This document shows positions 576 through 21,169 of a stretch of 64,000 nt of DNA, one piece after another (the stretch's first letter is position 1; the number at the start of each line of letters is the position of its first letter). A program made the translations under genes and the position numbers. The notes under the pieces were generated by a model. It was not told where the DNA came from. It saw only the letters and a list, made by a program, of their open reading frames with translations, and did no database searches. Source of the stretch: Martelella lutilitoris (GTDB lineage: Bacteria > Pseudomonadota > Alphaproteobacteria > Rhizobiales > Rhizobiaceae); NCBI RefSeq assembly GCF_005924265.1, contig NZ_VCLB01000005.1, forward strand, positions 1 to 64,000, in the 5' to 3' direction.

Positions 576-870
576 CGCCATCCCAGTGATCCAGCATTGA
601 GGTGCGTATATTTATTTCGCCAACTTTGACGGTACTTTATCGGAGCGTCAGATTCGACGTTTGCCATCGATGTCTCGTCGCGAGATGGCCGATAGGTGCC
701 GATAGTTCACAAATTTTTGTCGACCCTGAAATTCGCCAAAAACATAATAAAAACAAAAGAATAACTTTTTGACGGCCTACGCCTCGGCGTTGAGCGCGAA
801 AACAAAGGTTTTCCACAATAAAATTAATTTCTTGCGGTTGTAAAAATCTTAGAGTGGGTCGGCCGGGAGG
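576..870 (+). repeat. intergenic repeat, copy A
   Basis: This stretch aligns over almost its whole length with 10211-10530. Shared landmarks in the same order are: ccatccc..gatccag, gaggtg.gtatatt, tttgacggtactttatcgg, gattcgacgttt, gccgatagttcaca, ctttttgacgg, and an AT-rich end ..ttagagtggg. By eye it is roughly three-quarters identical, with small indels. Both copies have the same orientation and flank the three-gene ietA-ietS-GHKL cassette. It has no coding potential. The family of the repeat is not recognised. Confidence 0.65.
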
Positions 871-1130
871 CCAGCTGGCGGCCATATTTTTTTGGAGGTT
901 TTGCGCGCCGCTGTTGTCATTTCCGATGTTAAGATCCTTCTCCACGTCGGCGCTCAACCCCTCCGCAGGTCGAGGCAGCCGTGTACGGGGCGGCGTATAA
1001 GGTTCAACAAATGTGGTTGAACGTCTCCCTAATCGGGCGTCGCTCTCTTCCATTAACGTTTAATAAATATAAAGTCATCTCTCGGTAGTATCGACGCAAA
1101 TCAGCTCGGGGCAGTGAAAGTCGCAATAAT
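871..1130. other. upstream region of the ietA cassette
   Basis: This is 260 bp between repeat copy A and the AAA ATPase start. It has AT-rich patches (for example around 1060-1085) that could hold the promoter, but no convincing -35/-10 pair or operator was found. A minus-strand frame across 637-1053 looks spurious. Confidence 0.35.
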
Positions 1131-2216
1131 ATGGCATCGGCACAGCAATTGATCGGACTCGTCAAGAGTCACGCCGAAGGTGACGAAGAACGCTTCTTCG
1201 ATCTCGCCATGCAGCTTGCTGCCGCCGAAGACCAGAAAGGGCATACAAGGCTTGCCGAGCAACTGCGGCAATGGGCGGAGGTCCGTCGAACGCCGCCCGA
1301 GCCTGCCGCGGCAAAGCCGACGCCGCTGGCGACACCACGCGGTGATCTCGCCGGTTTCCTTGATGCGAGCTATCCCTCTACACGGCTCAGTGATGTCATT
1401 TTGCCGTTCCATCTCGAGGACGAGCTCAGTCACATTGTCACCGAAACCCGCATGCGGGAGCGGTTGGAGGAAAAGGGGTTGCGGCCGCGCCGGCGGCTCC
1501 TGTTCGCCGGCCCGCCCGGGACCGGGAAGACCTTGAGTGCGGCGGCCTTGGCTGGTGAATTGAGGTTTCCTCTTTTTACCGTGCTGCTGCATGGGCTGAT
1601 CACAAAATTCATGGGCGAGACCGCTCAGAAGCTACGCATGATTTTCGATGCGGTTCGCACGACGCGAGGCGTGTACCTGTTCGACGAGATCGACGCGCTT
1701 GCTGCAGCGCGGGGCTCTGAAAATGATATTGGAGAGGCGCGCCGCATCCTCAATTCGTTCCTGCAATTCCTCGACGAGGATACAGGTCCGTCGATCATCG
1801 TAGCTACTACCAATCTTCCGGAAATTCTGGATCGGGCAGTGCTGCGTCGCTTCGATCTGGTGTTGCCCTACGAAATGCCGAAGGGTGCAGCGATTGAAAA
1901 GGCATTGCGCCGCCGGTTGATCGGTTTCGATGCCAACAATGTCGATTGGGCGAATGTGGCGCACCATGCAGAGGGATTGTCGACCGCCGATGTTGTCGCC
2001 GCTGCGGAGGACGCCGCAAGACGAGCAGTATTGGCTAATCAGGAGAGCGTCGAGACAACATCACTCGTCGCGTCCTTGGATCGCCGCCGCTCACTGCATG
2101 GAATAGGGGGAATGGGCGGGGATGCCGAGGAATCGCAAACACTTCATTCTGCAAGGCTTAGGAAAAGCCCAGCTCTTCAAAGCCAAAGGCGGCGGATCGT
2201 CAAAAAGGCCAAGTGA
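1131..2216 (+). CDS. ietA: IetA-like AAA+ ATPase
   Basis: A single AAA+ ATPase of 361 residues. The Walker A motif GPPGTGKT lies at about 127-134 (Lys133). The Walker B motif is VYLFDEID with Asp185/Glu186. A sensor-1-like ATTN and the arginine-bearing RRFD follow. The N-terminal ~100 residues are helical and lack a known domain. Together with the downstream subtilisin-like protease it matches the IetA/IetS pair, first described as an incompatible-plasmid-eliminating stabilisation locus on an Agrobacterium plasmid and later listed among bacterial defence systems. By inference the ATPase controls or feeds the protease. Its last 95 nt overlap the protease gene in another frame, so the final ~30 basic residues after LHGIGGM may be a run-on tail. 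The pair assignment is good; the exact function is untested. Confidence 0.8.
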   Translation: MASAQQLIGLVKSHAEGDEERFFDLAMQLAAAEDQKGHTRLAEQLRQWAEVRRTPPEPAAAKPTPLATPRGDLAGFLDASYPSTRLSDVILPFHLEDELSHIVTETRMRERLEEKGLRPRRRLLFAGPPGTGKTLSAAALAGELRFPLFTVLLHGLITKFMGETAQKLRMIFDAVRTTRGVYLFDEIDALAAARGSENDIGEARRILNSFLQFLDEDTGPSIIVATTNLPEILDRAVLRRFDLVLPYEMPKGAAIEKALRRRLIGFDANNVDWANVAHHAEGLSTADVVAAAEDAARRAVLANQESVETTSLVASLDRRRSLHGIGGMGGDAEESQTLHSARLRKSPALQSQRRRIVKKAK

Positions 2217-4569
2217 TGTCGCCAACCGCGCCGCCCATGCTCAGGCACTTCTCCAAGCGCTCGATCATCTCCCGAACCCAGCTGCCGAAAATCGGCCCGG
2301 CCTCTACCTTGACGTCGAGGGGCGGCCGGGAGAGGTGATGGTGACGTCCGGCCTCGATGCCAGTGGCCTGACACTCCTGAAGGTGCAGCCGGCAGCAGGT
2401 GAGCAGCAACCGGCACGCGCGACCGTGTTTGCCTCGGGAAACGGCATCGACAAACTTCGGCAGAAAGTCACCAACTTCGGCGAGAAGAACCGAACCAAGA
2501 AGGACGGAACGGGAGGTCGGCCCTACAACGCCGATCTTGTCCAGAGCATCGGAGCGATTGTCGAAGCGGGTTTGCGAGCGCTGTGGCGTAGCCCCAATCA
2601 GAAGTTTCCCGACGGCAATGATTCGCGGCCCTGGGAAATCTGGCTCGACAAGGAAGCCGCAGCCGGTTTCATTGCCGGCGCTCCCGACTACGGCGTTGCC
2701 TTCAGCGCCGATCGCCTAGAATTTCCAGAAGACATCGTCGTCATCGGCACGGCTACCAGCGATGCTCTGGCCTTGGCGGTGCGCCGGTTGGCAGGCGTTC
2801 GTGCGCTGGCGGCTCCTACCGTTACGGCGGACTATTTCGATGCGCTCGAAATCGAGGAGCAGGTTGAATGGGTGGATGACGTCGTCGGTAGGGCGACGTT
2901 CGACGGAGGCGGCGATCCCAATTACATCACCTTGCTCGACCGCGGCGTCAGCAGGGCGCATCCGCTGATCGCTCCTGCGCTGGCCGTCGGGGATCGCCAT
3001 GCAGCAGAGCCAGCATGGGGGCTAGAAGATGCGGTTGGCCATGGTACTCAGCTCGCCGGCCTCGCTCTCTTCGGCGACCTCACCACGGCATTGCAGACGA
3101 TGAATCCCATCCAGGTTCGGCACCGGCTGGAGTCGGCCAAGATCATTCCGGACGCCGGACACAATCCCCATCACCTTCTTGGCGCAGTAACTCGCAAAGG
3201 CATCAACGCCGCCGAGGCCACCGGGAACCGCCGGCGCACCTTTACGTTGGCAACGACCACAGAGGACGATACCCCGCACGATGGAGCGCCTACGTCATGG
3301 TCGAGCGAGGTCGACCAGCTGGCCTCCGGCGTGTCCGGCGACAAGAAGATCAAGCGCCTGGTCCTCGTGTCTGCCGGCAACACCAACCAGAACCAGTTCG
3401 ACAACAACGATTACCTGTCGGTTTGCGATCTTCCCGACAACGAGGTGGAATCGCCCGCTCACGCTTGGAACGCGATCTGCGTCGGAGCCTATACCGAGAA
3501 GAATGTGCTCCCAGCCGGAGAGGTCGGTTTGCCGCTGGCGCCAGTTGGCGACCTTGCCCCATCCTCGCGGACGGCCAGTTGGTCATCGCACTGGCCGCTG
3601 AAGCCCGACGTCGTCTTCGAAGGCGGGAACTGGCTGGTGGACGGTGCTCCTCCACCGATGAAGCATCCAGCGCTTTCGCTTCTCACTACCGATCATCAGT
3701 ACCCGCAGCGCGCCTTCACGACCACAGGCGAAACGAGCGGTGCCACTGCGCTGGCAGCACGGGCGGTGACAGAGATCTGGTCGGACTACCCCGACCTTTG
3801 GCCGGAAACCATTCGCGCCCTGTTCGTTTCCTCTGCTCGCTGGACTCCTCAGATGAGGAGCCACCTGCCGGCCAACCCCGCCAAAGGGGATTATGCGCCG
3901 TTGTTCAAGCGCTATGGCTATGGCGTTCCCGATCTTGATCGAGCGCGCCGAAGTGCTTCAAATGCCCTGACCCTCATCGTGCAGGATACAATCAGGCCGT
4001 ACCGAAAGGCAGAAAAGCCATCGGCGCAGCATGTCCACAATGAGATGAAGGTGTTCCAGTTGCCGTGGCCGGTCGAGGAATTGAGGAAACTCGTTCAAAG
4101 CCCTGTGAAGCTGCGCGTTGCGCTCAGCACTTTTATCGACCCGAACCCGTCCGAGCCGGCGCGAGGTTCCAAATTCCGATATGCCTCGCACAAACTGCGC
4201 TTCAAGCTGAACCGGCCCAACGAGAACCAGGTCGCGTTCCTGGCCCGCATCAGCGATGTTGCCGAGCAGCTGGAAGGTCCGGCTGTCGAGGAAGACGACA
4301 ACTGGACCTTTGGCCGCAATCGCCGCGATGTCGGATCACTGCACATCGATGAACTGGTCTGCCCGGCATCCGATCTGGCTCGCCGCAATCTGATCGCGGT
4401 ACATCCTGTTGCAGGCTGGTGGAAGACCAAGACCGTTCCCGATCCGCAGGATCTCATTGCCCGCTTTTCGCTGATCGTCGAAATCGATGCCGGCGAGAGT
4501 AATGCTGAACTCTATGCCGAGGTCCAGGCAGCCATTGAGATCCTCAATGTCGTTGAGAACGTCGTGTGA
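2122..4569 (+). CDS. ietS: IetS-like subtilisin-family (S8) serine protease
   Basis: An 815-residue S8 peptidase with a complete catalytic set: Asp273 in LLDRGVS, His307 in VGHGTQ, oxyanion Asn420 in VSAGNTNQ, and Ser539 in GETSGATA. There is no signal peptide, so it should act in the cytoplasm. The start MPRNRKHFIL is kept because these AAA-partnered proteases typically open with a short basic stretch of this kind, even though it overlaps ietA by 95 nt. The region after the protease domain (about 600-815) has no recognised domain and may bind a substrate or partner. The order ATPase then protease, with overlap, implies one translationally coupled operon. It probably attacks a host or invader protein when triggered; the target is unknown. 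Confidence 0.82.
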   Translation: MPRNRKHFILQGLGKAQLFKAKGGGSSKRPSDVANRAAHAQALLQALDHLPNPAAENRPGLYLDVEGRPGEVMVTSGLDASGLTLLKVQPAAGEQQPARATVFASGNGIDKLRQKVTNFGEKNRTKKDGTGGRPYNADLVQSIGAIVEAGLRALWRSPNQKFPDGNDSRPWEIWLDKEAAAGFIAGAPDYGVAFSADRLEFPEDIVVIGTATSDALALAVRRLAGVRALAAPTVTADYFDALEIEEQVEWVDDVVGRATFDGGGDPNYITLLDRGVSRAHPLIAPALAVGDRHAAEPAWGLEDAVGHGTQLAGLALFGDLTTALQTMNPIQVRHRLESAKIIPDAGHNPHHLLGAVTRKGINAAEATGNRRRTFTLATTTEDDTPHDGAPTSWSSEVDQLASGVSGDKKIKRLVLVSAGNTNQNQFDNNDYLSVCDLPDNEVESPAHAWNAICVGAYTEKNVLPAGEVGLPLAPVGDLAPSSRTASWSSHWPLKPDVVFEGGNWLVDGAPPPMKHPALSLLTTDHQYPQRAFTTTGETSGATALAARAVTEIWSDYPDLWPETIRALFVSSARWTPQMRSHLPANPAKGDYAPLFKRYGYGVPDLDRARRSASNALTLIVQDTIRPYRKAEKPSAQHVHNEMKVFQLPWPVEELRKLVQSPVKLRVALSTFIDPNPSEPARGSKFRYASHKLRFKLNRPNENQVAFLARISDVAEQLEGPAVEEDDNWTFGRNRRDVGSLHIDELVCPASDLARRNLIAVHPVAGWWKTKTVPDPQDLIARFSLIVEIDAGESNAELYAEVQAAIEILNVVENVV

Positions 4570-4744
4570 GGCGTCGGCGGGCCGCACACGTCGCTCGCGG
4601 TGACGTCGCCGGCCATCATGTTCCCGCGCCGCGTCCTCCAGCGGTAAAGATCATGGTTATCCGCCCCATCGGACAACCCCGGTCCGTATGGAAGAAGGCC
4701 ACATTTGACGGCTCGCTGAGGAAAATGGCTGGCCAAAACAAGAG

Positions 4745-7700
4745 ATGTCGAAAGAAATGCAGATGCTGGATCATTCGAGCAAGAACAGTATGGTTGGATC
4801 ACCGTCAGAGCATATCCGGGCTGAAACGCTTCGCCGTATCCAGCATTTTCTGTCGGATCCCGCATTGTCCGTCTATCCGGACCTGAAGGGCATGTGCGAG
4901 CGGGTCTCAGACAGCTATCGCGACCGCGTCATTATCGAACTCCTCCAGAATGCTCACGACGCCCATCCTAGCGCATCAAGCGATGGACGGATAAAGTTCA
5001 TTCTGGACATGAGCGAGGGGCCGCACGGCACCCTGTACGTGGCCAATGATGGCGCCGGCTTCACGCGCGACAACTTCGATGCACTGTGCAGCCCCACTCG
5101 AACCACCAAGGACGTGAACGAGGCCATCGGAAACAAAGGAGTCGGCTTTCTCAGCGTCTTCCAAGTGTGCGCCCATCCGGAAATCTTCTCAAGACTGACC
5201 CCTGAATCACGCTATTTTGATGGTTTCTGCTTTCAGTTCGCGGATGATCCCACGCTCACACGGTTCCTTGAGGCCCAGCAGCTTGGCGACACCGCCGCGC
5301 TCGTCATCGCGAGCATGCCGCGCGTGTACCTCGGGTGCCCCGCCAATGCCTCGAACGTTACGGTCGAGGAGCTGGCGAAAGACGGCTATGCTACCGTCGT
5401 GCGGCTGCCTTTGAAAAGCGCTGAAGCCGCGGAATCCGTTGCCGCGCAGCTCGGCAGTCTTGCGGAGGAAAGTCCTCCAGTTCAGCTCTTTCTCACGCGC
5501 GTCACGACGTTGTCGGTCGAACGACGCGGCTGCGATCCCGTGTTCAACACGCTGACACGGACGTCACAGGTTATCCACGACGAGCATGATCTCCGCCTCA
5601 TGATCGTCTCCTGCGGGAATCGAAGCTATACGGTAGTTGAACGAACCGTTCCATACGCTGCGGTCATCGACGTCATACAGCGAGATGTCATGGCCGAGAA
5701 GATGCCTGAAGCTTGGCTAAACTGGACCGGTGACGCGGTCGTCTCGGTGGCCGTTGCTGTCGACGGACCTCCATTGGACGGGCGGCTCTATAATTTTCTC
5801 CCCATGGGGGCCGATGTGGGCGGTCCCTTCCCCGGATATCTCGACGCGCCGTTCCTCGCCAGCCTCAACCGGCTGACACTCCAGAGCGGCGTCGAGCTGA
5901 ATCACATGTTTCTTGCCGTCGCTCGAGACGCAGCCCTCGCCGGGGCGCGACTTGCGAAGGTGAAACTTGCGCACGAACAAGCGCGGCAGGTCGTGCTGGA
6001 TCTCCTGATGTGGAATGGATCGGAACGAGACGAGATCCGCAAGAAAATATTCGCGTCTCGTGATGCGCTTTTACCTTCGGTACCTGGCACTCGGGCACCA
6101 GAAGGTTGGGCATCTTTCGCTGATGCGAAGGCATGGCCCACCGACCAGTTCATCACTCCTGCCTTGGCGGCGAGAACGTCGCCATTTCCCCTGCTGGACC
6201 CTTCCATCGACTTGGGTCGACTTAGGTTGCTCGAGCAATTCTTGGCTGGGAAACGACTGCTTAGCTGCACAAACGAGGAACGGGCGGAAGTCGTGGAGGG
6301 AGTCGCGTCTGATCTTGCGAAGCGGAAGGCGTCGATCGAGCGGTGGAACCGGTTCTACGCCTCCGTCCGGGTGCTCTTCAAGGATGCAGGTGAGGCGTTG
6401 CATGGCCGTAAATTGCTGCTTACCGCGCGGCGCGAGCTCGACCTCACGGATGCACCAGTGCTCGCCCGCGGCAAGCGGCGCCGTCTGAGCGCGGTCTTCC
6501 TGCCGCCCTTGCGCAATGTCGACAGTGCCGAGGCCTTGAAGAGCCTGCCCCGAAATGTGCAACGCCGCATCGCCTATTTGCATCCAGACCTGGAGCTTTC
6601 CCGAGACGGAACCAGCTTGGCGCGCCGGTTCTTCGTGGGCAATGGGCTCTTGCGCGAGTATGAAAGTCGCGAAATTCTTCGATTGTTGGCGAATGCAATT
6701 TCGGTGCCCGGGGAGACGCAGGATCCCGATGGTCTGCGGTGGCAGGCCCTCACCGCAATGATGCGGATCGTGATCGGGGAGGATACCGCGGACGCCATCG
6801 TGGCCGAGCTCAACGTGCATGTTCCGACGCGCCAAGGATGGTCGCGTGCAAATATTGCCTATCTCGGCGACAGTTGGGCACGAAAGGGCGGCGGCGGGCT
6901 CGAGCGGCTCTTCGAGCGGGCAGCCGGCATTTCTACCGAGCTGGATAACCATGCAGAACGGGCCCTTCGCCGCTATGCCGATTGGCCGGTCGCATCGGGA
7001 GACCGGGAGAACTGGGAAGCATTCCTGCGCAAGGCTGGCGTGTCCGACACGCTTCGGCCGATTCCAGCACTGCCAGGAAGTGCCCCACGCGCATGGCCGA
7101 ACGCGCTGGCCTCGACGCTGGCTGTTCGTGCGGGACTGCCCAAAGATCAGACCGATTGCTGGAAAGCTCTGATGGGGCCGGGGAACAACTTGGCCAATCC
7201 GCAGACGATCTACACCGCGAGCGGCGCGATGCGCGCTCCAGGACAACTGGATTTTGACGCCCTGGCCCCGGTCGCTGGTCCGGACTATGCGAGGGAGATC
7301 ATTCGCATGATCGAGCGGTCACCGGAAGTGCTCCGTATGACCGTGTTCAAACCAGATCATCCGCACGCACCAGATCGCAGGCAATGGCCGTCGCCGCTGG
7401 CTGCCTTTGTCCGAGGCGTGGCATGGGTCCCTCTGTCGCAGGGGAGCCTTGAGCGGCTGCAAGCGGCATGGTTGCCCGGCACCGAGACAAGAACGCCGCC
7501 GCCGTTCTTGCCAATTGTCTCACCCGACCTTCGCGATGTCTTGTCCCGGTCTGAACTCGCGGCCGCCGAGCTTCGAGGCGCCGGACTGTCGGAATATGGC
7601 AATCGTACCTCCGCATGGCGTTTTCTATCCATGGCTGGTGATCTCGTCGACCGCGCCACTCATCAGGTCGACAAGGAGCGAATCTATTCCGCTAGTCAGG

Positions 7701-10039
7701 ACGCTTGGCAGCAGGCGGACCTCCAGCAACTTCCACCTCCACAGCTTCGATTGCTGGGGCGTGTAAACGGCGAAGTGACAGTTGCATCGCCTGATCTCCC
7801 CGACGCGCCAGCTGTTGTCGTTTCAGATGGAGATGACCGACAGCTCTTTGCCGCGACGGCACAATCGGGCGCCGGAACACTCGTTATCGAGCCGCCACCG
7901 AATCGCGCTGGCGAGGTGGGCGCCTATTTGGCGACGCGCTTTCCAGATAGGGTCCGTCGGGCCTCGGCGATCCAGGCAAGCTTCGAGTCTGGCGGCGAAC
8001 CAATCCGCTTCAACTCTGGCGAACCCTTGATCGAAGACATGCTGGGAGATGTGATCCGAGAGATCGTTGTTCTCACGCAGCGTTATCGCAACAGCCTTTA
8101 TCGAGGACCGATCGAACAGGTTCTCGAACGACTTTCTCAACTGCGAATCCGCTTCCTGGACGACCTTTCGATCCGGGCAGGGACGGTTGTGGACCCCGTC
8201 CCGATGTTCGCCACACGCGCCGTGCTTCACAAAGACGATTACGGGCAGACGGTGCTTTGTCATAGCGAGCTCAAAGAAAGCGGCCGGCTGCTTGTCGCGA
8301 TCGCCGAGCCCCTCGGAGAGGCGCTCGGTAGTCGCCGCTTCATTGGCGAGCCTATTCTCGCCTTCGCTGCGCAGTTGGGACCAGATGCGCTCGCCTCAAA
8401 CCATGAGGACTATGCTGCGATCCTGAATATGCCGGTCGAGGTGGTCGGCCGTGTCCTCGGTGCTTCTCGCGCGTCGATCGGCAATCTGCTCAGGACGCTA
8501 CGGCCATTCGTCGCGCTGTTTGCCGGGCAGGACGCTGCTGCCGATTTTGTAACCGGTCGTGGACTCCACAGCGAAGACGATGTGAGAGCCTCCCTTGTGG
8601 CACTGGCGCACCTGTTACCGGTGGAGCCAGACAGCTTGGTCAAGCGATGCCGTGAGGCGGGGGAGATTGAACCCGTTGCGATCGCGCTTGGGGTGGATCT
8701 CGCCCGGCTCAACGCGGCGCTAGAAAGCCTAGGACCGCCCTACACACGGCTCGATCTCACGGATCGGCATCAAGCGACGCTGTCGGCTTTCTTGACGCGA
8801 AAAGACAGGTTCATCCGTGAAAGCGTGCGCGCGTCGTTCAGAGTGATGTTCGCTTCCGGCGCCGACCTCAGCAAGTATGTGCAAACCCGCGACGCGGCGC
8901 TTCCGACCCTTCCTGAGGACTTCGGTCGGACAGCTATCAGTCTCGACCAAGATGTGATGCAGGGCTGGCTCGATCGCTGGATGGCAGTAAACGGTGTCGT
9001 TTCGGTCGCCGACCTCCCCGAGGGCCGCGAAGCGATAGATGCTGTTCGCGACCACAATCAGCGCCAGCTCCGGTCTTGGGCTTCGCGCCTTCGCGAGGCC
9101 GTGCTGATCCGGTTAGAACAGGAGAGCCCGCTGCGCCAGCAATGGCTTTCACTCGCCGAGGTCGAAGGCAATCTTGTTAAGGCTGCCTCGTCGGGAGGGT
9201 GGATGGACTTTGACAGGCTGACAGAAGGTGCCGCTCTTGGTTGGATGTCGCGCAGCGGAATGTGGCCGAAGGATTGGCCGCTATCGCTCGATGCCATTGG
9301 CTTATCTGAGGCGGAACGCTCCAAATTCGCACGTGACGAACAGGCGGCCCGCAAGGCAGCGGCAACACGCCGCCGAACTATCGAGCACAGTGGTGGTGTC
9401 TTCACAATTGGTGCCGATACGCTCAGCATGCTCGTAAACCAAATCGCGAGCGGGGTTGCGCGGAACGCGGCACTCTTAGCGACGTCAACGCGCACGGTGC
9501 GCGGCACCCCAATCGCCATCCGGACGTCGAGAGGTGGCGGCGGGGGTGGTGTTGGCGGCGGCGGGGGTGGAGCGCCGAGGCTTTCCGACGACGAACGCGA
9601 AGTCATTGGGTTCTTCGGCGAAGCCATCGCCTTCAACTGGCTGAAGCAGCGCTTTGGCGCCAAACGCGTCGTCGACGAAAGTGCTTGGAAATCGGGCTAT
9701 CGGCAGCACATCTGCGGAGAAAAGGGTAATGACGGACTGGGGTACGACTTCGAAGTGGCCAATGGTGGAACACGTTGGTTTTTCGAGGTTAAAGCAACGA
9801 AGTTGGTCGAGCCCCAAGCTAGGCAGACTATAGAACTTGGTTCGAGCGAAATCGCGCATGCCGAGTCATGCAAGGCGGACAAGCGGTTTCGATATCGCAT
9901 TCTTTACGTCATGAATGCGCTGCAGCCCGAACGAGCATCGATATTTCCACTGCCTAACCCCCGCAGTCGGGCCGGTCTTGCCTTTTTTGCCGAGCAGCAA
10001 AGCACCGGCGTGCGATTGCTCTTTCCCCTGGCGCGCTAG
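4745..10039 (+). CDS. giant GHKL (Hsp90/sacsin-like) ATPase with C-terminal DUF3883 domain
   Basis: A 1764-residue protein. The N-terminus carries a GHKL fold: ELLQNAHDA (Glu65, Asn69), NDGAGF (Asp102) and the lid GNKGVGF (129-135), as in sacsin-type Hsp90-like ATPases. About 1450 residues without recognised motifs follow. Next is a glycine-rich linker near 1597-1612, and then a DUF3883 domain (about 1618-1740) with GYDFEV (Asp1668) and FEVKAT (Glu1681, Lys1683), resembling a PD-(D/E)XK nuclease core. It lies 175 bp behind ietS on the same strand, inside the same flanking repeats. ATPase-nuclease architectures of this kind are common in defence islands. By inference it is a third component, perhaps a DNA sensor or effector. 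The start ATG at 4745 has only a weak purine-rich leader. Confidence 0.8.
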   Translation: MSKEMQMLDHSSKNSMVGSPSEHIRAETLRRIQHFLSDPALSVYPDLKGMCERVSDSYRDRVIIELLQNAHDAHPSASSDGRIKFILDMSEGPHGTLYVANDGAGFTRDNFDALCSPTRTTKDVNEAIGNKGVGFLSVFQVCAHPEIFSRLTPESRYFDGFCFQFADDPTLTRFLEAQQLGDTAALVIASMPRVYLGCPANASNVTVEELAKDGYATVVRLPLKSAEAAESVAAQLGSLAEESPPVQLFLTRVTTLSVERRGCDPVFNTLTRTSQVIHDEHDLRLMIVSCGNRSYTVVERTVPYAAVIDVIQRDVMAEKMPEAWLNWTGDAVVSVAVAVDGPPLDGRLYNFLPMGADVGGPFPGYLDAPFLASLNRLTLQSGVELNHMFLAVARDAALAGARLAKVKLAHEQARQVVLDLLMWNGSERDEIRKKIFASRDALLPSVPGTRAPEGWASFADAKAWPTDQFITPALAARTSPFPLLDPSIDLGRLRLLEQFLAGKRLLSCTNEERAEVVEGVASDLAKRKASIERWNRFYASVRVLFKDAGEALHGRKLLLTARRELDLTDAPVLARGKRRRLSAVFLPPLRNVDSAEALKSLPRNVQRRIAYLHPDLELSRDGTSLARRFFVGNGLLREYESREILRLLANAISVPGETQDPDGLRWQALTAMMRIVIGEDTADAIVAELNVHVPTRQGWSRANIAYLGDSWARKGGGGLERLFERAAGISTELDNHAERALRRYADWPVASGDRENWEAFLRKAGVSDTLRPIPALPGSAPRAWPNALASTLAVRAGLPKDQTDCWKALMGPGNNLANPQTIYTASGAMRAPGQLDFDALAPVAGPDYAREIIRMIERSPEVLRMTVFKPDHPHAPDRRQWPSPLAAFVRGVAWVPLSQGSLERLQAAWLPGTETRTPPPFLPIVSPDLRDVLSRSELAAAELRGAGLSEYGNRTSAWRFLSMAGDLVDRATHQVDKERIYSASQDAWQQADLQQLPPPQLRLLGRVNGEVTVASPDLPDAPAVVVSDGDDRQLFAATAQSGAGTLVIEPPPNRAGEVGAYLATRFPDRVRRASAIQASFESGGEPIRFNSGEPLIEDMLGDVIREIVVLTQRYRNSLYRGPIEQVLERLSQLRIRFLDDLSIRAGTVVDPVPMFATRAVLHKDDYGQTVLCHSELKESGRLLVAIAEPLGEALGSRRFIGEPILAFAAQLGPDALASNHEDYAAILNMPVEVVGRVLGASRASIGNLLRTLRPFVALFAGQDAAADFVTGRGLHSEDDVRASLVALAHLLPVEPDSLVKRCREAGEIEPVAIALGVDLARLNAALESLGPPYTRLDLTDRHQATLSAFLTRKDRFIRESVRASFRVMFASGADLSKYVQTRDAALPTLPEDFGRTAISLDQDVMQGWLDRWMAVNGVVSVADLPEGREAIDAVRDHNQRQLRSWASRLREAVLIRLEQESPLRQQWLSLAEVEGNLVKAASSGGWMDFDRLTEGAALGWMSRSGMWPKDWPLSLDAIGLSEAERSKFARDEQAARKAAATRRRTIEHSGGVFTIGADTLSMLVNQIASGVARNAALLATSTRTVRGTPIAIRTSRGGGGGGVGGGGGGAPRLSDDEREVIGFFGEAIAFNWLKQRFGAKRVVDESAWKSGYRQHICGEKGNDGLGYDFEVANGGTRWFFEVKATKLVEPQARQTIELGSSEIAHAESCKADKRFRYRILYVMNALQPERASIFPLPNPRSRAGLAFFAEQQSTGVRLLFPLAR

Positions 10040-10210
10040 TGACGGACAGCCCCTTCTAAGCGTCCTTTGTGATCGCGTCTCACGGGCATTGGCGAGTATA
10101 AGCTCGCAAGTTTTGGCACCTTCAGCAAAATCAGGAATATCGGAAACGAGCTGACCTAACCGGCTGCCGGTCGCAAGATACCGACCGAGATTGAACAATC
10201 TACCGGTCAC
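10040..10210. other. non-coding spacer after the GHKL gene
   Basis: No supported gene is present. A minus-strand frame (roughly 10255-10040) reads EHIAWTTEVERVTGRLFN and onward. A similar peptide start (EHIALTTKVE) occurs beside repeat copy C, so this may be a remnant linked to the repeat rather than a gene. Confidence 0.35.
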
Positions 10211-10530
10211 CCTCTCAACCTCTGTCGTCCATGCAATGTGCTCGGTTCGAACCGGCCATCCCGGCGATCCAGGATCGAGGTGGGTATATTGATTTTGCCG
10301 GTTTTGACGGTACTTTATCGGGGCGCTAGATTCGACGTTTGTCGTCTACGTCTCAACGCGAAACGGCCGATAGTTCACAGAATTTTTCTGTCGTGAAATT
10401 CCAAAAAAATATAGCAAAATCAAGAGGCTAACTTTTTGACGGGTCTGGTCACGGCGCGGGGAGCCGAAAAGGAAATTTTCTGTAAGAAAATCAATTCCTT
10501 AGGACATGAAAAATATTAGAGTGGGAATGG
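10211..10530 (+). repeat. intergenic repeat, copy B
   Basis: This is the longest and clearest copy. Its first ~35 bases (cctctcaacc, then tgcaatgtgctcg) match copy C at 42518. The middle and end match copy A at 576-870, including tttgacggtactttatcgg, gccgatagttcaca and ttagagtggg. It is AT-rich toward 10380-10520. It closes the ietA-ietS-GHKL cassette in direct orientation relative to copy A. No open frame of note was found. Confidence 0.68.
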
Positions 10531-10674
10531 TTCAGGCCCATCCGAACGCTGCTGATTGCGCACTGAGACGCGGCTTAACATACTGTAAACAAAAATAAAT
10601 TCCTTCAATGCCTATCGATATCTATCGGTGGGCATAGATCGCGTTTGGTAGCCTCGCTGACGGGCCTCGCCCCC

Positions 10675-10924
10675 CATTGATCAACCGGATATCCGATCAG
10701 ATTGGCTCGCTCTTCCTCGAAGACGTCCCAGACCGTGCGCTGTGGCTGTTCGACCTGTTTGTGGGCAGGGGCGCAACTGATGCGTTTTTCCAGCAGCCAC
10801 CGCCGCGCAGAACCTTCCGAACCACTTTACGCGAAATACCCAATTCCCGGCAGCTCGCTTTGTTCGGCATGCCTTTCATCAGCGCAAGCCGGCGTATCTT
10901 TGCAATTGTTTCCACAACAAGCAT
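10675..10924 (-). pseudogene. IS21-type transposase istA, internally deleted remnant
   Basis: Reading leftward from 10924, the frame starts MLVVETIAKIRRLALMKGMP and continues CRELGISRKVVRKV, the N-terminal helix-turn-helix of IS21-family IstA. Near 10800 the frame changes and the sequence becomes AHKQVEQPQRTVWDVFEEER, which belongs to the C-terminal part of IstA. Several hundred codons between these parts, including the DDE core, are gone. The element is dead, and no istB partner is seen. It lies between the cassette repeat and the catabolic island. Confidence 0.72.
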
Positions 10925-12187: not shown

Positions 12188-12303
12188 ATGTCGTTTCACC
12201 GCGTATTGGTCAAGGAATTTCGGCTGTCCTGCCGGCGTCCGCGCAGGTGCTTCGATTGCCAGCCCGTTCGGTCTTGGCTAGGGTTGCGCATCAGAGTTGA
12301 TGG

Positions 12304-12984
12304 TTGGAGTGGAGCCTTTTGTCCATAAGTCAGGAAAAGAAGAACCGAATAGGCGCGATCCGCGAAAAGCTGCTGGAAGAGGCGGAGATACACAGCGTTC
12401 AGAACCAGACGCTGGTGCAGAAACGGCGTGAACAGATTTGCGATGCTGCGCTTGATCTCTTTCTGGAGAAAGGCTTCGCCTCGACGACGATCCGCGATAT
12501 CTGCGGGCGTTCCAGGGTTAACCAGGCAAGCATATACGACTACATCGCTAACAAGAACGATATCCTGCGCCGGCTTATGAACCAGGTCTGGTTCCGCCAG
12601 GACGTCCCGACACTGGCGGAACTGCTGGGTGATCCGGATCTGACGCTGGAGGATGCCTTCGCCCGCTATTTTCGCGACACATTGCAGCTTCGGCGCAAGG
12701 GCACGGTGCTGATTTACCGGTCTGTACCGCACATGCTCGATGACGACCGCCGGCTTATGCACGCGCGTGAAATCGCGTTGATCAAAGACGTGGCCGACGA
12801 ATTGCGGACGCGCACGGCCCACCCCGTGGATGAGCGGAGACTGGAGGTCCTCGCCAACCTGCTGATTTTCCTTGCCGGTTTCGGGCCGTTGCGTGACTGG
12901 CTCAACAAGGACGCATCGCAAGAGACGATTGTGGACGTTGCAGCGGCCGGAGCAGCGGCAATGGTTCGGGCCGTGACCGGCTAG
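12304..12984 (+). CDS. TetR/AcrR-family regulator of the island
   Basis: A TetR-type repressor of about 226 residues. After a ~40-residue N-terminal extension come the helix-turn-helix segment REQICDAALDLFLEKGFA and VNQASIYDYIANKNDILRR. The C-terminal ligand domain is variable, as usual. The frame opens with TTG at 12304; another TTG at 12319 is an alternative start. The palindrome cctgacaaatgtcagg upstream of this gene, its divergent neighbour and the kinase/dehydrogenase promoter region identifies its probable operator. The inducer is likely an acyl-CoA of the pathway, as in other TetR regulators of fatty-acid-type catabolism; this is inferred. Confidence 0.82.
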   Translation: MEWSLLSISQEKKNRIGAIREKLLEEAEIHSVQNQTLVQKRREQICDAALDLFLEKGFASTTIRDICGRSRVNQASIYDYIANKNDILRRLMNQVWFRQDVPTLAELLGDPDLTLEDAFARYFRDTLQLRRKGTVLIYRSVPHMLDDDRRLMHAREIALIKDVADELRTRTAHPVDERRLEVLANLLIFLAGFGPLRDWLNKDASQETIVDVAAAGAAAMVRAVTG

Positions 12985-13028
12985 GCTAAAGGGGCAACGC
13001 CTGACGCCTGGCGAGGCATTTTCCCGGG

Positions 13029-13047
13029 TTGTGACGTGCCGTCACAA
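13029..13047. terminator. hairpin between convergent genes
   Basis: Perfect 8-bp arms (ttgtgacg / cgtcacaa) enclose a 3-base loop between the convergent ends of the TetR gene and the phosphotransferase gene. No clear T-run follows, so termination efficiency is uncertain. Confidence 0.4.
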
Positions 13048-13056
13048 GGAGGTGCT

Positions 13057-14133
13057 TTACATCGAGCGGGCGATCCGGGCGCCTGCTTCAGCGACGCGTC
13101 TGGCACGAGTGCCGTCCTTTTCCGGGTCGGCGCTGGCGCTGCTGGCGGTTCCACGCGCTGCACGCGCTGCCACGCCCTGGCTGATCGCTGCTGAACGGAA
13201 GCAGGAAAAGGCAAGAAAGACCGGCCAGTCCGGGATATCGTCGCGCCCCGTCGCCGTGCGGTAGCGCGCGAGGATGTCTTTCTCCGGCGGCAAGCCGGCG
13301 GCCAGCAGGTCCTGAACGCCGGGCAGATCCAGGGGCAAGCGGTAATGCAGGCACAGATAGGCCAGGTCGGCCAACGGGTGGCCGATGGTGGAGAGTTCCC
13401 AGTCGAGTACGCCGATCACCCGCGGTTCGCGGGGGTGGACCACGACGTTGCCTAGCCGGTAATCGCCATGGACGATGGTGCTCTCGTCGGACACCTGGCT
13501 GTGCTTGAGCAGCCAGTCTCTCAGCCAATCCATCTGGCTGTAGTCGAAGTTCTTCGGCAGGTCGGATTTGGCAGCTTCGTACTGGGCCGACCATCGTGCC
13601 GTCTGCCGCGCCAGATAACCTTCCGGCCGGCCGAAACCTTCCAGTCCTGCTGTACGCCAGTCCACCTTGTGCAACGCCGCCAGCGTGTCGACGAGAGACC
13701 AGGCCAGTTCGACGCGCTCGGTTCTCGGCAACGGGTCCATCGCCACCGAACGGATGATCCGTCCCTCCATGTGCTCCATCACGAAGAATTCCGCCCCGAT
13801 CACGCCAGGATCGTCGCAATAGGCGATCATCCGCGGCACCGGCACGCCGCTGTCCTCCAGCGCGCGCATGACCCGGTATTCCCGGTCAATGGCATGAGCC
13901 TTGGGGAGCAACTTGCCCGGGGGCTTCTTGCGCAGCACGTAACGCCGCCCTGACGGGAGGGTTAGAAGGAAGGTCGGGTTCGACATTCCTCCTTGATATT
14001 GCTCGACCCTCAGACCGTCCCGGGTGTCCGGAAGGCTGTCCGAAAGCCAGCGCGCCAGCGCTGCCTCGTCGAAGCGATGATTGGGCAGCGGCGGAATCGT
14101 CACTGCCGAGGAATTGGCGTTTCGGGTGCTCAT
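13057..14133 (-). CDS. APH-fold phosphotransferase, ACAD10/11 kinase-domain type
   Basis: A 358-residue aminoglycoside-phosphotransferase-fold kinase. It has the nucleotide-binding Lys in YVLRKKPPG, the catalytic loop VHGDYRLGN (His222, Asp224, Asn229) and the metal-binding VLDWE (Asp244). The sequence type is that of the N-terminal domain of mammalian ACAD10/ACAD11 and of LvaA in the Pseudomonas levulinate pathway. Those kinases phosphorylate the 4-hydroxyl of 4-hydroxyacyl-CoAs so that a partner acyl-CoA dehydrogenase can eliminate phosphate. An ACAD11-like dehydrogenase lies at 16538, supporting the same job here. Two TetR-type palindromes separate this gene from the divergent operon. The last ~40 residues are low-complexity and Ala/Arg-rich. 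Confidence 0.82.
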   Translation of the reverse strand: MSTRNANSSAVTIPPLPNHRFDEAALARWLSDSLPDTRDGLRVEQYQGGMSNPTFLLTLPSGRRYVLRKKPPGKLLPKAHAIDREYRVMRALEDSGVPVPRMIAYCDDPGVIGAEFFVMEHMEGRIIRSVAMDPLPRTERVELAWSLVDTLAALHKVDWRTAGLEGFGRPEGYLARQTARWSAQYEAAKSDLPKNFDYSQMDWLRDWLLKHSQVSDESTIVHGDYRLGNVVVHPREPRVIGVLDWELSTIGHPLADLAYLCLHYRLPLDLPGVQDLLAAGLPPEKDILARYRTATGRDDIPDWPVFLAFSCFRSAAISQGVAARAARGTASSASADPEKDGTRARRVAEAGARIARSM

Positions 14134-14174
14134 CGGCGTCGCTTTCCGCTGTAGGGCGGCCTTTCGTCGTGTTT

Positions 14175-14190
14175 CCTGACAAATGTCAGG
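14175..14190. promoter_or_regulatory. TetR-type operator palindrome, site 2
   Basis: A perfect palindromic site, cctgacaaatgtcagg (7-bp arms, 2-bp centre), 42 bp upstream of the phosphotransferase start. The same 16 bases recur at 14309. Confidence 0.75.
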
Positions 14191-14308
14191 ATTACCACTT
14201 AGCGACTTCCGCTCATCGGGTCAATTACCGTTATCGCGTCGCGGGAAGCGTCCGGCTTGGCTTGCCGGCAGGGGTTGACGGGCGGGTGGAAGTCACCTAT
14301 CAGTCGAT

Positions 14309-14324
14309 CCTGACAAATGTCAGG
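14309..14324. promoter_or_regulatory. TetR-type operator palindrome, site 3
   Basis: A second identical copy of cctgacaaatgtcagg, 87 bp upstream of the hydroxyacyl-CoA dehydrogenase start. Paired with site 2, it gives each divergent transcript its own operator. Confidence 0.75.
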
Positions 14325-14410
14325 AAACTTTATCGGCTAACAATTTTCATCGTCGTCAGCACCGTTGATGGCGATGGCGACCGCAGCTTTGCGACGAGAA
14401 GGAATGTTCG

Positions 14411-15715
<1,305 letters not shown>

Positions 15716-15724
15716 GAGCGACCG

Positions 15725-16501
15725 GTGTCCTACGAATTCATCACCACCGAGAAACGCGGCAAAGTGCTGGTACTCACCATGAACCGACCGGAGCTCTACA
15801 ATGCCGTCCATGCGCCAATGCATGATGAGATGCATGCCGCGTGGAACGCGTTCGCTGCCGATCCCGATCTCTGGGTCGCTGTGCTCACCGGGGCGGGCGA
15901 GAAGGCCTTCTCTGCCGGCAACGATCTGAAATATACTGCCAATGGCGGCAAGGGCGCATCGCAGCCGACTGGCTTCGGCGGCATCGTCGCGCGCTTCGAT
16001 CTGGACAAGCCGGTGATCGCGGCCGTGAACGGTTTCGCCGTGGGTGGCGGTTTCGAGATGGCCCTGTCGTGCGACATCATCCTTGCCGCCGACAACGCGA
16101 CATTCGCCCTGCCGGAAGTGAAGGTGGGGTTCTTCCCCGCAGCCTCCGGAATCCAGAGACTGATCCGCGAGACAAGCCGCAAGAAAGCGCTGGAACTGAT
16201 CCTTACCGGACGCCGTGTCGGTGCGGTGGAGGGCGCCGCAATGGGCTTCGTAAACGAGGTCGTGCCGCAGGCCGAACTGATGGCGCGAGCGATGAGGATG
16301 GCCGACGAGTTGGCCGCGGTCTCGCCCTCGGCGCTGCGCGCGACCAAGCGGGTTCTCAACTACATGGACGCGATCGCGCGCCTTGAAGAGAGCCTGCTTT
16401 TCAACCGCGAGGTGCTGGCCGAGTTGCGCCGGACGGAGGACTTCGCCGAGGGCGTGAAGGCGTTCGTCGAGAAGCGCAAACCCGTCTGGAATAACCGCTG
16501 A
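15725..16501 (+). CDS. enoyl-CoA hydratase
   Basis: A 258-residue crotonase with GTG start, nine bases after the preceding stop and with a gag-type leader. Both hydratase glutamates are in place: GGGFEMALSCDIIL carries the first and FALPEVKVGFFP the second. The oxyanion-hole segment AFSAGNDLK is also present. It is therefore likely to be a genuine enoyl-CoA hydratase, unlike the crotonase at 11322. Its position between the dehydrogenase and an acyl-CoA dehydrogenase gives a beta-oxidation order. Confidence 0.86.
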   Translation: MSYEFITTEKRGKVLVLTMNRPELYNAVHAPMHDEMHAAWNAFAADPDLWVAVLTGAGEKAFSAGNDLKYTANGGKGASQPTGFGGIVARFDLDKPVIAAVNGFAVGGGFEMALSCDIILAADNATFALPEVKVGFFPAASGIQRLIRETSRKKALELILTGRRVGAVEGAAMGFVNEVVPQAELMARAMRMADELAAVSPSALRATKRVLNYMDAIARLEESLLFNREVLAELRRTEDFAEGVKAFVEKRKPVWNNR

Positions 16502-16537
16502 GCCGCGGATCGGCTTACTAACGCAAACCGAGGGGGA

Positions 16538-17851
16538 ATGTCCGTGCGAGACATCGAGAACGAACTGAACCAACTGGCAATGTCCGAGGCGGCCCAACCG
16601 CTGCTGGAGAAGGTGAAACGGCATGTCCTGGAGCATTGCGAGCCAGCCTATATCGAATATGAGCGGCTTGGCGAAGGACGGCCCGAGCGTTTTCAGTACG
16701 CACCCGGCCAGCTCGAGATCATCGAGGACCTCAAGGCAAAGGCAAAGGCGGAAGGGCTATGGAACTTCTTTCTGCCCGACGCGGAAACCGGAGAGGGGCT
16801 TTCCAATCTTGACTACGCCTACATCGCATTCGAGCTTGGCAAGAATCCGCTCGCTTCGCAGTCGCTGAACTGCGCGGCACCCGACACAGGCAATATGGAA
16901 GTGCTAGAGAGGGTCGGCACCCCGGCGCAGAAGGAACGCTGGCTCAAGCCGCTCCTGAATGGCGAGATCCGTTCGGCCTTCGCCATGACGGAGCCGGACG
17001 TGGCTTCATCGGATGCCAGGAACATCTCAACCCGCGCGGTTCTGCAGAACGGCGAATGGGTGATCAGCGGCGAGAAGTATTTCATCTCGGGGGCGGGCGA
17101 CCCGCGCTGCAAGGTGATGATCGTCATGGCCCGGACGTCGCCGGACGCGGAGACATTCCGCCAGCAAAGCCAGATCCTGGTGCCAATGGACGCGCCCGGA
17201 GTGGAAATCGTCGGCCCGATGCGGGTTTTCGGCCACGACGACGCGCCGCGCGGCCACATGCAGATCCGCTTCCATGACGTTCGCGTGCCTGAAGAGAATA
17301 TTCTTTGGGGCGAGGGACGCGGCTTCGAAATCAGTCAGCTAAGGCTTGGTCCGGGGCGCATTCATCATTGCATGCGCTCGATCGGTGCAGCGGAAAAAGC
17401 GCTCGACCTGATGATTCATCGCGGCCTGACCCGCGAGGCTTTTGGCAAGAAGATCATCGATCTCGGCAAGAACATGGAAACGATATCCCGTGCGCGTATC
17501 GAAATCGACGCGATGCGCCTCATGGTGCTCAAGGCCGCGCGTGCGATGGATGTTCTGGGAAACAAGGAAGCGCGGATCTGGGTCTCCAAGATCAAGGCCA
17601 TGGTGCCGGAGCGCTGCGCGAAGATCATCGACGATGCGATGCAGGTCCACGGTGCCACGGGCCTCAGTCACTGGTCGCCGCTCTCCGAAATGTACATCAT
17701 GCAACGTCTGTTGCGGTTTGCCGACGGGCCGGACGAGGTTCATCACTTCGTTGTCGCCCGCGCTGAGCGTCAGGCCTTCGAAGCGTCGGCCGATCGGATG
17801 CAGGCGGCCCGGGCGGAGACCCGCGGCGGCATGCTTTTCGGGGGGCCGTGA
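16538..17851 (+). CDS. ACAD11-like acyl-CoA dehydrogenase
   Basis: A 437-residue flavin acyl-CoA dehydrogenase that strongly resembles the C-terminal half of ACAD10/ACAD11. Examples are CAAPDTGNMEVLERVG, AMTEPDVASSDARN, LGPGRIHHCMRSIG, VHGATGLS and RFADGPDEVH. In that subfamily (and in LvaC) the flavoprotein removes phosphate from 4-phosphoacyl-CoA to give enoyl-CoA. The kinase half is encoded separately at 13057 under the same palindromic operators. The gene overlaps the following SDR by four bases. The specific substrate cannot be told from sequence. Confidence 0.88.
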   Translation: MSVRDIENELNQLAMSEAAQPLLEKVKRHVLEHCEPAYIEYERLGEGRPERFQYAPGQLEIIEDLKAKAKAEGLWNFFLPDAETGEGLSNLDYAYIAFELGKNPLASQSLNCAAPDTGNMEVLERVGTPAQKERWLKPLLNGEIRSAFAMTEPDVASSDARNISTRAVLQNGEWVISGEKYFISGAGDPRCKVMIVMARTSPDAETFRQQSQILVPMDAPGVEIVGPMRVFGHDDAPRGHMQIRFHDVRVPEENILWGEGRGFEISQLRLGPGRIHHCMRSIGAAEKALDLMIHRGLTREAFGKKIIDLGKNMETISRARIEIDAMRLMVLKAARAMDVLGNKEARIWVSKIKAMVPERCAKIIDDAMQVHGATGLSHWSPLSEMYIMQRLLRFADGPDEVHHFVVARAERQAFEASADRMQAARAETRGGMLFGGP

Positions 17852-18639
17852 CGATGGCGGATCTTTTCGATCTTTCCGGCCGGGTGGCGTTGCTTACCGG
17901 CGCTTCGAGGGGCATGGGCAGGGTCATGGCAGAGGCGCTGGCCTTGCATGGCGCGACGGTGGTGATCTCGTCGCGCAAGCAGGAACAGTTGGACGAGGCT
18001 GCGGCCTGGATCAACGCTGCATGCGCTCGCAAGGGGTTGGCGCCCCGCGCCCATGGGGTAGCCGCGCATGCAGGGCGCAAGGCCGAGTTGGAGGCACTTG
18101 TCGAGGAAACCCGCAAACTCGCCGGCCCAGTCGACATCCTCGTCGGCAACGCCGGAGTGAATGTGTTCTTCGGGCCAATCTCGGAAATACCGGACGCGGC
18201 CTACGAGAAAACCATGCAGGTCAATGTGCAGGCCAATCTATGGCTGGCCCGCCTGGTGGCGGACGACATGAAGGCGCGTGGCGGCGGTGCGATGATGTTC
18301 ACGTCCAGCGTCGGCGCGCTGCGGCCCTCGCCGACCCAAGGGGTATACGGGATGTCCAAACTGGCCCTTGTCCACCTCGTGCGCAATCTGGCGCTGGAGT
18401 TCGGGCCATTCGGCATTCGTGCCAACGCCATCCTGCCCGGCCTCGTGCGCACCGAGTTCGCCAAGGCCGTGTGGGACACGCCCGAAGGCGAGGAGCGTGC
18501 CCGGTCGAAAATCCCGTTGCGGCGGCTCGGAGAGCCGGAGGATTTCGCCGGTGTCGCGGTGTTCCTGGCTTCAGATGCCAGCAATTACGTCACGGGGCAG
18601 GAAATCACCGTCTGCGGCGGAACGTCGCTGTGGAATTGA
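17848..18639 (+). CDS. short-chain dehydrogenase/reductase
   Basis: A classical SDR of about 263 residues. It has the cofactor motif TGASRGMGR near the N-terminus, NAGVNVF, the catalytic Ser in MFTSSVG and YGMSK (Tyr/Lys), and the C-terminal NYVTGQEITVCGG. The GTG at 17848 overlaps the preceding stop as GTGA; the ATG two codons later is an alternative. It is probably a hydroxyacyl-CoA or alcohol dehydrogenase in the pathway. Confidence 0.85.
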   Translation: MTMADLFDLSGRVALLTGASRGMGRVMAEALALHGATVVISSRKQEQLDEAAAWINAACARKGLAPRAHGVAAHAGRKAELEALVEETRKLAGPVDILVGNAGVNVFFGPISEIPDAAYEKTMQVNVQANLWLARLVADDMKARGGGAMMFTSSVGALRPSPTQGVYGMSKLALVHLVRNLALEFGPFGIRANAILPGLVRTEFAKAVWDTPEGEERARSKIPLRRLGEPEDFAGVAVFLASDASNYVTGQEITVCGGTSLWN

Positions 18640-18661
18640 GATCGAAAACGGAGGAGCGAAG

Positions 18662-19435
18662 ATGAATGTCGCGGGTCGAATTTGCGTCGTGACGGGCGCC
18701 GCGGGCGGAATCGGGCAGGCATTGGCCCGACGCTTCCACGCTGCGGGGGCGCGCCACGTCGTTTGCGCCGACCTTGACGGCGAGGGTGCCGTGGCGACAG
18801 CGGAGGAGATCGGAGGCACCGGGATCGGCGTGGATGTCTCCGGCGAGAATGAGATCGAGGCGCTGGTGACCCGGATCGAACGCGACATCGGTCCGGTGGA
18901 TCTGTTCTGCTCCAATGCCGGTATATCGATACGCGGGGGCGTCGATGTGTCCGACGCGGCCTGGCAGAAGATGTGGGAGGTCAATGTGATGGCGCACGTC
19001 TGGGCGGCCCGCCACATGCTCCCCCACATGATCGCGCGCGGGGGTGGCTATTTTCTCAACACCTCCTCCGCGGCAGGGCTGCTCAGCCATGTCAGCTCCG
19101 CGCCCTACGCGGTGACGAAACACGCTGCCGTCGCCTTTTCGGAGTGGCTCGCGCTCGCTCATGGCGACGAGGGCATCCGGGTCTCCGTGCTGTGCCCGCA
19201 GGCCGTGAAGACGAACATGCTCAAGGGCAAGGAAGGTGGAGTGGCCTCTGTTGACGGGCTGCTCGAGCCAGAGCATGTGGCCGAGGACTGCCTCGCGGCA
19301 ATCGAGGAAGAGCGGTTTCTCGTGCTGCCCCATCCCGAGGTGAAGGAATATCTGCGCAGGAAAACCGAGGATTACGATCGCTGGATCGGCGGCATGCGCA
19401 AATTGCGGCGGCGATACACCGAAGGTCTCGCCTGA
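18662..19435 (+). CDS. short-chain dehydrogenase/reductase
   Basis: A 257-residue SDR with TGAAGGIGQ, CSNAGIS, the serine region LNTSSAAG and active-site YAVTK. The ATG at 18662 is preceded by ggagcgaag, a good ribosome binding site, and yields a standard SDR N-terminus. The frame extends upstream in the preceding gene, but that part is shadow. It is the last gene of the 14411-19435 operon and converges on the DUF35 gene. SDRs with this C-terminal pattern (VLCPQAVKTNM) are often found with acyl-CoA pathways; the substrate is unknown. Confidence 0.84.
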   Translation: MNVAGRICVVTGAAGGIGQALARRFHAAGARHVVCADLDGEGAVATAEEIGGTGIGVDVSGENEIEALVTRIERDIGPVDLFCSNAGISIRGGVDVSDAAWQKMWEVNVMAHVWAARHMLPHMIARGGGYFLNTSSAAGLLSHVSSAPYAVTKHAAVAFSEWLALAHGDEGIRVSVLCPQAVKTNMLKGKEGGVASVDGLLEPEHVAEDCLAAIEEERFLVLPHPEVKEYLRRKTEDYDRWIGGMRKLRRRYTEGLA

Positions 19436-19508
19436 CCGGCAGGTATGAAGGGCCTTCGCGCGATATCGAAGGGCCCATGATCATCGGCACAAGAGCGTAT
19501 CGTGCCGG

Positions 19509-19904
19509 TCAGGGCCCGGCGCCGTCCACCAGGGCCGCGACCAGAAACTTGTTGCCGCTGCCGGCGGTTTCGAACGTCATCCTCACCCGCCGGCCCACGG
19601 CGAGCCTTTCGTGATCTCGTTTGCGAAAGCGGACGTAGATGCGCGGGCCTTCGTCGAGATCGACATAGCCGAGTGCGAAAAGAGCGTCGGCGGGACGGCG
19701 CATGATCGTCCAGGAATAGATCTCGCCTGCGCCGGGACTGCGTTCCTGCCGTGTGTCGATGCTTTCGCACAACGGACAGAAATCGCGAGGATACCAGTGC
19801 GCCTCGCCGCAGGACAGGCAGCGTCCTATCAGGAAGTGTCCGTCTTCTGCAGCCTTCCAGAAGTGGCGGGCCTCGGGATTGATTTCCAGAAGGAGGTTGG
19901 TCAT
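19509..19904 (-). CDS. DUF35 OB-fold, zinc-ribbon partner of the thiolase-like protein
   Basis: A 131-residue protein with a rubredoxin-like zinc ribbon (CLSC..CPLC, around residues 30-47) and an OB-fold (IYSWTIMRRP and after). DUF35 proteins form complexes with SCP-x thiolase-like enzymes, as ChsH2 does with the Ltp2 retro-aldolase in steroid side-chain breakdown. Its start overlaps the stop of the thiolase-like gene by ATGA, which implies a 1:1 co-translated pair. It probably holds the acyl-CoA substrate. Confidence 0.86.
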   Translation of the reverse strand: MTNLLLEINPEARHFWKAAEDGHFLIGRCLSCGEAHWYPRDFCPLCESIDTRQERSPGAGEIYSWTIMRRPADALFALGYVDLDEGPRIYVRFRKRDHERLAVGRRVRMTFETAGSGNKFLVAALVDGAGP

Positions 19905-21055: not shown

Positions 21056-21169
21056 CGCTCCTCCTACGCGCCCTGTCGCGCTGTGACCGGGCTTCCCACA
21101 TGGTCGGCATCATGGCTTGATGAGGTAACCGCACAGCGGGTCGGAGTAAAGCTTTGGCAGAATGAGTTA

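Follow-up and report, generated by a model that had tools for sequence, protein, structure and literature searches.

IetAS, a gene for an AAA+ ATPase followed by one for a subtilisin-like (S8) protease, reportedly appears in the defence list of Gao et al. 2020. A pair on the Ti plasmid is cited in PMC5006074. That paper describes a relative carried by Salmonella genomic island 1, sgiAT, which functions as a toxin-antitoxin system of two genes: the S8 protease poisons E. coli cells, the ATPase relieves this toxicity, and without the pair the island is retained less well when an IncA/C plasmid is present. Tiamat is grouped with defence systems of unknown mechanism in PMC10482375 and PMC12926258. 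Here, a locus from Martelella lutilitoris is analysed in which both kinds of system adjoin: a window of 64,000 nucleotides (the whole stretch of DNA that was studied, positions 1 to 64,000 of contig NZ_VCLB01000005.1) carries ietA, ietS and tmtA one after the other. TmtA is the product of what we take to be the gene of Tiamat. A search of the literature, covering partial texts, found no description of IetAS beside Tiamat.

The original prediction, made from the letters of the sequence, had proposed a three-part system in which an ATP-gated sensor and nuclease works with an ATPase-controlled protease. An obligatory machine of this kind is not supported by the evidence presented below. We consider it probable instead that ietAS and a Tiamat-type tmtA are two separately known modules that have come to lie side by side in one mobile cassette.

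The ietA, ietS and tmtA genes

The three genes follow each other on the plus strand as consecutive open reading frames (ORFs), just as predicted: ietA at 1131-2216 (361 amino acids), ietS at 2122-4569 (815 amino acids) and tmtA at 4745-10039 (1764 amino acids). The product of ietA, the putative antitoxin-like partner of IetS, matches the PADLOC IetA model PDLC02196 (E=1.1e-68) and the Pfam family AAA (5.6e-29), and its Walker A and B motifs are intact, with K133, D185 and E186 unchanged in 26 of 26 aligned IetA sequences. The adjoining gene encodes an S8 protease that matches Pfam Peptidase_S8 (1.2e-43) and, more moderately, the PADLOC IetS model PDLC02198 (3.2e-23); its triad D273/H307/S539 is the same in all 15 aligned IetS proteins, and its sequence has no match among solved structures at E<=0.001. 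Both the naming of the pair and the active-site residues singled out beforehand were therefore correct. The third gene encodes a giant protein resembling sacsin and NO VEIN which matches the PADLOC TmtA model PDLC03971 over residues 11-1761 of 1764 (E=0, 1469.8 bits) and, above the cut-off, the NCBIfam model P_loop_sacsin (1e-21). Judged by these matches, the genes are ietA, ietS and a full-length tmtA.

Some details of the gene borders allow more than one reading. The frames of ietA and ietS overlap by 95 nucleotides (2122-2216), an overlap of equal length at four other loci, where IetA identity goes down to about 71%; either both frames are coding here or ietS starts further downstream. As the first ATG of tmtA is absent in Rhizobium sp. 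CFBP 8762, the true start, going by this comparison, may lie a few codons downstream of 4745. A promoter and terminator scan of the gap between ietS and tmtA found no plus-strand site of either kind, with a scan background in which terminator-like sites were fewer than in shuffled sequences and promoter-like sites about equally frequent.

TmtA appears to combine a GHKL-type ATP-binding head and a long middle with an end resembling PD-(D/E)XK enzymes. The head motifs lie at 4907-5194 on the plus strand (residues 55-150) and include E65, N69 and GNKGVGF (129-135); E65, N69, D72, N101, G103, G129, K131, G132 and G134 are invariant in all 16 aligned TmtA proteins, which covers both the N-box and the GxKGxG motif. 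The Pfam domain SACS is found at the N-terminus, profile comparison finds domains of sacsin and Hsp75/TRAP1 among solved structures, and a structural model of the N-terminal part, with a predicted local distance difference test (pLDDT) score of 64.6, has 17 matches at E<=0.001, including SMCHD1, GRP94, MORC2, GyrB and MutL. Going by its motifs, the head probably binds ATP. The usual GHKL motif is DxGxG, with an aspartate. In all 16 TmtA proteins Asn101 takes the place of this aspartate, and residue 105 is not always glycine, so that hydrolysis of ATP is uncertain even though the predicted GHKL end itself stands.

At the other end, a NOV_C/DUF3883-type domain is placed at 9572-9964 (plus strand) by the PD-(D/E)XK-like motif E1626...D1668...E1681-V-K1683, of which E1626, D1668, E1681, V1682 and K1683 are likewise invariant in 16 of 16 sequences. 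NOV_C (PF13020, formerly DUF3883) is not seen in the window protein itself at E<=1, but it exceeds the cut-off in four of the five TmtA relatives scanned, and their residues align with those of the window protein; the predicted name of this end was correct. The C-terminal model (pLDDT 81.5) comes nearest to archaeal Hjc resolvases, followed by HincII, SPARDA nucleases, DpnI and EcoRV, with a best E of 2.7e-3, none at E<=0.001, and template modelling scores of about 0.2-0.5 (Hjc, HincII, SPARDA). Going by its motif, this end probably cuts nucleic acid.

Linkage and history of ietAS and tmtA

A block at 748-10206 that holds all three genes is shared with CFBP 8762 at 89.7% DNA identity, the proteins being 92.5% (IetA), 93.0% (IetS) and 91.7% (TmtA) identical; CFBP 8762 was the one match in a single-protein scan of genome contigs. 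The same gene order is found in a third genus (genome G435), where the identities are 86%, 88% and 74%, respectively. The order ietA-ietS-tmtA is therefore kept in two further Rhizobiaceae genera, three in all, whose guaA genes have 76-79% DNA identity to the Martelella copy (79% in G435). A search of the genera of G435 and of genome G495 gave one further genome (G533), which is without TmtA. This recurrence speaks against the idea that the modules adjoin by chance within a defence island, moved by shared recombination events and not kept adjacent by selection, as does the tight spacing of ietS and tmtA in G435. The CFBP 8762 cassette does lie near DISARM-type genes, as such an idea would have it, yet we regard it as highly unlikely.

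Outside these three genomes the modules are mostly found apart. A family sample of 346 genomes, which the IetA and TmtA searches both appear to cover and in which at most two candidates were scored per genome, contains IetA in 34 genomes at 36 places (E<=1e-60) and full-length TmtA in six genomes; the two are linked in three of the six genomes and at three of the 36 places, nine of which were judged by comparing flanks and 27 from the genome search. A class sample of 385 genomes holds 25 IetA places above 200 bits, and besides the window itself none of the 24 fetched flanks contains TmtA, although some of these end at contig ends (e.g. G157). On plasmids, there is no overlap between the 34 listed records (35 by tally) with an IetA of at least 60% identity and the 19 records that match TmtA; H7 and H10-H19 of the latter lie outside the flank comparison. 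Looking from the other side, IetAS is present in the fetched flanks of three out of 25 TmtA loci (sets of 19 and six) and missing from those of the other 22, several of these flanks being short. Viral contigs gave no match to single-protein TmtA and IetS queries; an alignment query for TmtA gave six loci there, and their fetched flanks match neither IetA nor IetS. An unverified phage-collection record, MT835712, has a TmtA that is 25% identical and no IetAS. Consistent co-location in relatives, which an obligatory three-gene system would show, is not what these counts give.

The closest relatives of the pair that are without TmtA share an ietAS unit with the window (1010-4571). Genome G703 has a whole ietAS with a 97% identical IetA and matches 1010-4571 at 94.2% DNA identity, and the plasmid of Rhizobium sp. 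NXC14, for which the plasmid alone was compared, has a whole ietAS with a 92% identical IetA and matches 1042-4569 at 87.3%. TmtA adjoins neither of them, and in both the homology to the window stops at the ietS stop codon. In a third relative (G669, IetA 90% identical) the contig ends within ietS, and this genome is absent from the TmtA matches.

The histories of the genes also differ. In an 11-taxon tree of IetA and IetS, copies with and without TmtA interleave: the window groups with G703 (support 100) and CFBP 8762 with NXC14 (69), with G435 outside (62, weak). Synonymous divergence (dS) between the window and CFBP 8762 is 0.562 (0.443-0.694) for ietA and 0.476 (0.388-0.564) for ietS, whereas it is 0.201 (0.176-0.231) for tmtA and 1.199 for guaA. 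The core yardstick is this single gene, guaA, since window positions 12300-32000 have no match in G495. Relative to CFBP 8762, tmtA and ietAS differ in age and both are younger than guaA. Values between the window and G435 (ietA 1.894, ietS 0.890, tmtA 1.969) are near saturation, and guaA of G435 was excluded from the dS comparison because of an impossible nonsynonymous divergence (dN) of 0.98 over 471 codons, the mark of a wrong reading, while its DNA identity was kept. In G435, where ietAS is whole, two contigs each carry part of tmtA; their stretches of homology share 4 bp (window 5001-5004), the pattern that integration of an insertion sequence (IS) would produce. Parts of the cassette have changed hosts, at times separately.

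A model of two modules can be outlined from these data. By analogy with the literature on sgiAT, IetS would be a protease toxin restrained by the AAA+ ATPase IetA, and loss or disturbance of the pair would free the protease; this may stabilise the carrier DNA in its host cell and oppose competing plasmids or phages. TmtA, with its putative ATP-binding head and its end predicted to cut nucleic acid, would act as a module of its own. The cassette is common to several Rhizobiaceae genera, and on more than one occasion tmtA would have been added to ietAS or dropped from it.

Several observations weigh against two independent modules. Within the close TmtA subclade (at least 74% identity) all three members immediately follow ietAS, and the G435 tmtA has its first in-frame ATG 8 nucleotides past the ietS stop. 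IetA occurs in four of the six family-sample genomes with full-length TmtA, against 34 of 346 (P 0.001, or 0.007 without the window's own genome), and in all three such genomes of the class sample, against 24 of 385 (P 0.0002, or 0.003). The ages of ietA and ietS are unequal as well, with dS values of 0.300 and 0.576 between CFBP 8762 and NXC14 and of 1.894 and 0.890 between the window and G435, so that ietAS has itself recombined. Of the five plasmid pairs without TmtA that were fetched, two have a broken ietS, by an IS66 insertion in S. fredii and by a split frame in Aminobacter. Finally, the NCBIfam equivalog cut-offs are missed by both proteins of the pair (IteA 196.5 vs 510 bits, IteS 24.8 vs 900). 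Such equivalog models are narrow by design. The genome-level co-occurrence could come from a general clustering of defence genes: in three genomes (G085, G095, G645) IetA and TmtA are on different contigs, and in G117 a shorter TmtA relative lies about 64 kb from an IetA.

Some of these points would suit a real three-part system confined to a small Rhizobiaceae subclade, in which TmtA, co-expressed with ietAS, would use its ATPase-like head and nuclease-like end to detect incoming nucleic acid and would license the IetS protease response or add to it. The kept order and orientation in three genera, the close TmtA proteins that all adjoin ietAS, the possible 8-nucleotide gap, dN/dS values of 0.04 (ietA), 0.08 (ietS) and 0.20 (tmtA), and the fact that TmtA relatives follow other defence genes too can all be read in its favour. 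Yet the closest whole ietAS relatives lack TmtA, tmtA and ietAS are of unequal age, and the G435 tmtA is split as by an IS beside a whole ietAS, which makes this system unlikely in our view. The original prediction is partly supported. The order recurs and genome co-occurrence exceeds chance; linkage is confined to a small minority of IetA places. For the three-part claim support is mostly lacking: the third gene is itself a full-length member of the TmtA defence family, hardly any of the ietAS pairs examined, even among close relatives, has it alongside, and the relative sgiAT works as a two-gene pair (PMC5006074).

Neighbourhoods of tmtA and limits of the cassette

Of the 25 TmtA loci, 12 have a PADLOC defence-family match in the same-strand gene that precedes TmtA, a figure that carries no background rate from random genes. 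Six kinds are represented: IetS (three loci), a Mokosh-like helicase (three), a type IIG restriction-methylase (two), a methyl-directed restriction enzyme (two), a type I specificity subunit (one, before a divergent TmtA relative) and LmuB (one, in phage record MT835712, 231 nucleotides apart). The helicases, which have a partial MkoA match, precede TmtA in G645, Roseovarius and G950, each of which represents a different branch of the TmtA tree; a small DUF4357 gene lies between the two in Roseovarius, and the two ORFs abut in G950. None of six further upstream ORFs scanned has a PADLOC match. At three loci the annotation shows no same-strand gene immediately before TmtA; at one of these, an ORF on the strand opposite an annotated gene also lacks a PADLOC match.

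This pattern is a lead, not proof. It raises the tentative idea, which we consider rather unlikely, of tmtA as a portable tail gene able to join different defence operons, where its product would serve as a shared ATP-gated sensor or nuclease; here it would form a conditional three-part system with IetAS. A helper role for TmtA at this locus is conceivable.

On the reading that we prefer, of two modules in one mobile cassette, the limits of the cassette deserve attention. Two copies of a repeat of roughly 290 bp flank the genes on the plus strand (572-858 and 10250-10525) and are 73% identical over 291 columns. Their existence, as predicted, is real, but they do not form a conserved boundary: the homology to CFBP 8762 begins at 748, within the left repeat, and two copies in genome G007 bracket a different gene. 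In several Rhizobiaceae the repeat adjoins genes of defence type, with further copies at 8319-8606 and 9633-9909 of L104 (G007) and at 16844-17180 of L045 (CFBP 8762). The gene bracketed in G007 encodes 226 amino acids, with a weak HEPN match (0.0082, under the cut-off), and is near a gene for the NACHT antiphage protein HyoA. The repeat may mark points of cassette exchange.

At the right end of the shared block (junction 10206/10207), CFBP 8762 holds an extra 1.4 kb with most of a gene of 448 amino acids (L045 15501-16847), which follows tmtA there, has a weak RWP-RK match alone and has no counterpart in the window cassette; pieces of this gene and of the repeat occur at 42242-42694 of the window. 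Upstream of the cassette, CFBP 8762 has DISARM-type genes (L128; matches to DrmA, DrmMI, DrmD and DrmMII). A stretch of 171 bp at 10519-10689 of the window is 88% identical to the interval between the guaA end and an integrase-like gene in the same genome (L107 9765-9934), and 85-87% identical to similar places, judged by gene sizes, in three other species; it looks like an attachment-site duplicate. Further copies of the contig start (1-123) occur in the genome, frequently where contigs end, and this sequence is probably the end of an insertion sequence. No tRNA or Rfam landmark was found within the window.

Comparison with known systems

Two known but mechanistically unsolved modules that travel together with separate histories show that adjacency of defence genes need not equal one machine. 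What TmtA contributes can be tested directly, since natural ietAS pairs that are more than 90% identical exist both with tmtA and without it, and the variable upstream neighbours of TmtA make a general partner role testable.

Compared with the described systems, the first two genes resemble IetAS and sgiAT in their order, an AAA+ ATPase gene and then an S8 protease gene, in their intact active sites and in having plasmid-borne relatives with 60-92% IetA identity. They differ in that the window IetS is a moderate PADLOC match, far under the NCBIfam cut-off, and that tmtA follows the pair. With the architecture of sacsin and plant NO VEIN (Pfam SACS and NOV_C), TmtA shares the N-terminal SACS domain and, in its relatives, the C-terminal NOV_C domain, whereas TmtA is bacterial and stands in a defence setting. 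The third gene is like Tiamat in matching the TmtA model over its full length; unlike it, the window tmtA lies behind ietAS, and its product is 21-26% identical to full-length relatives beyond its own subclade.

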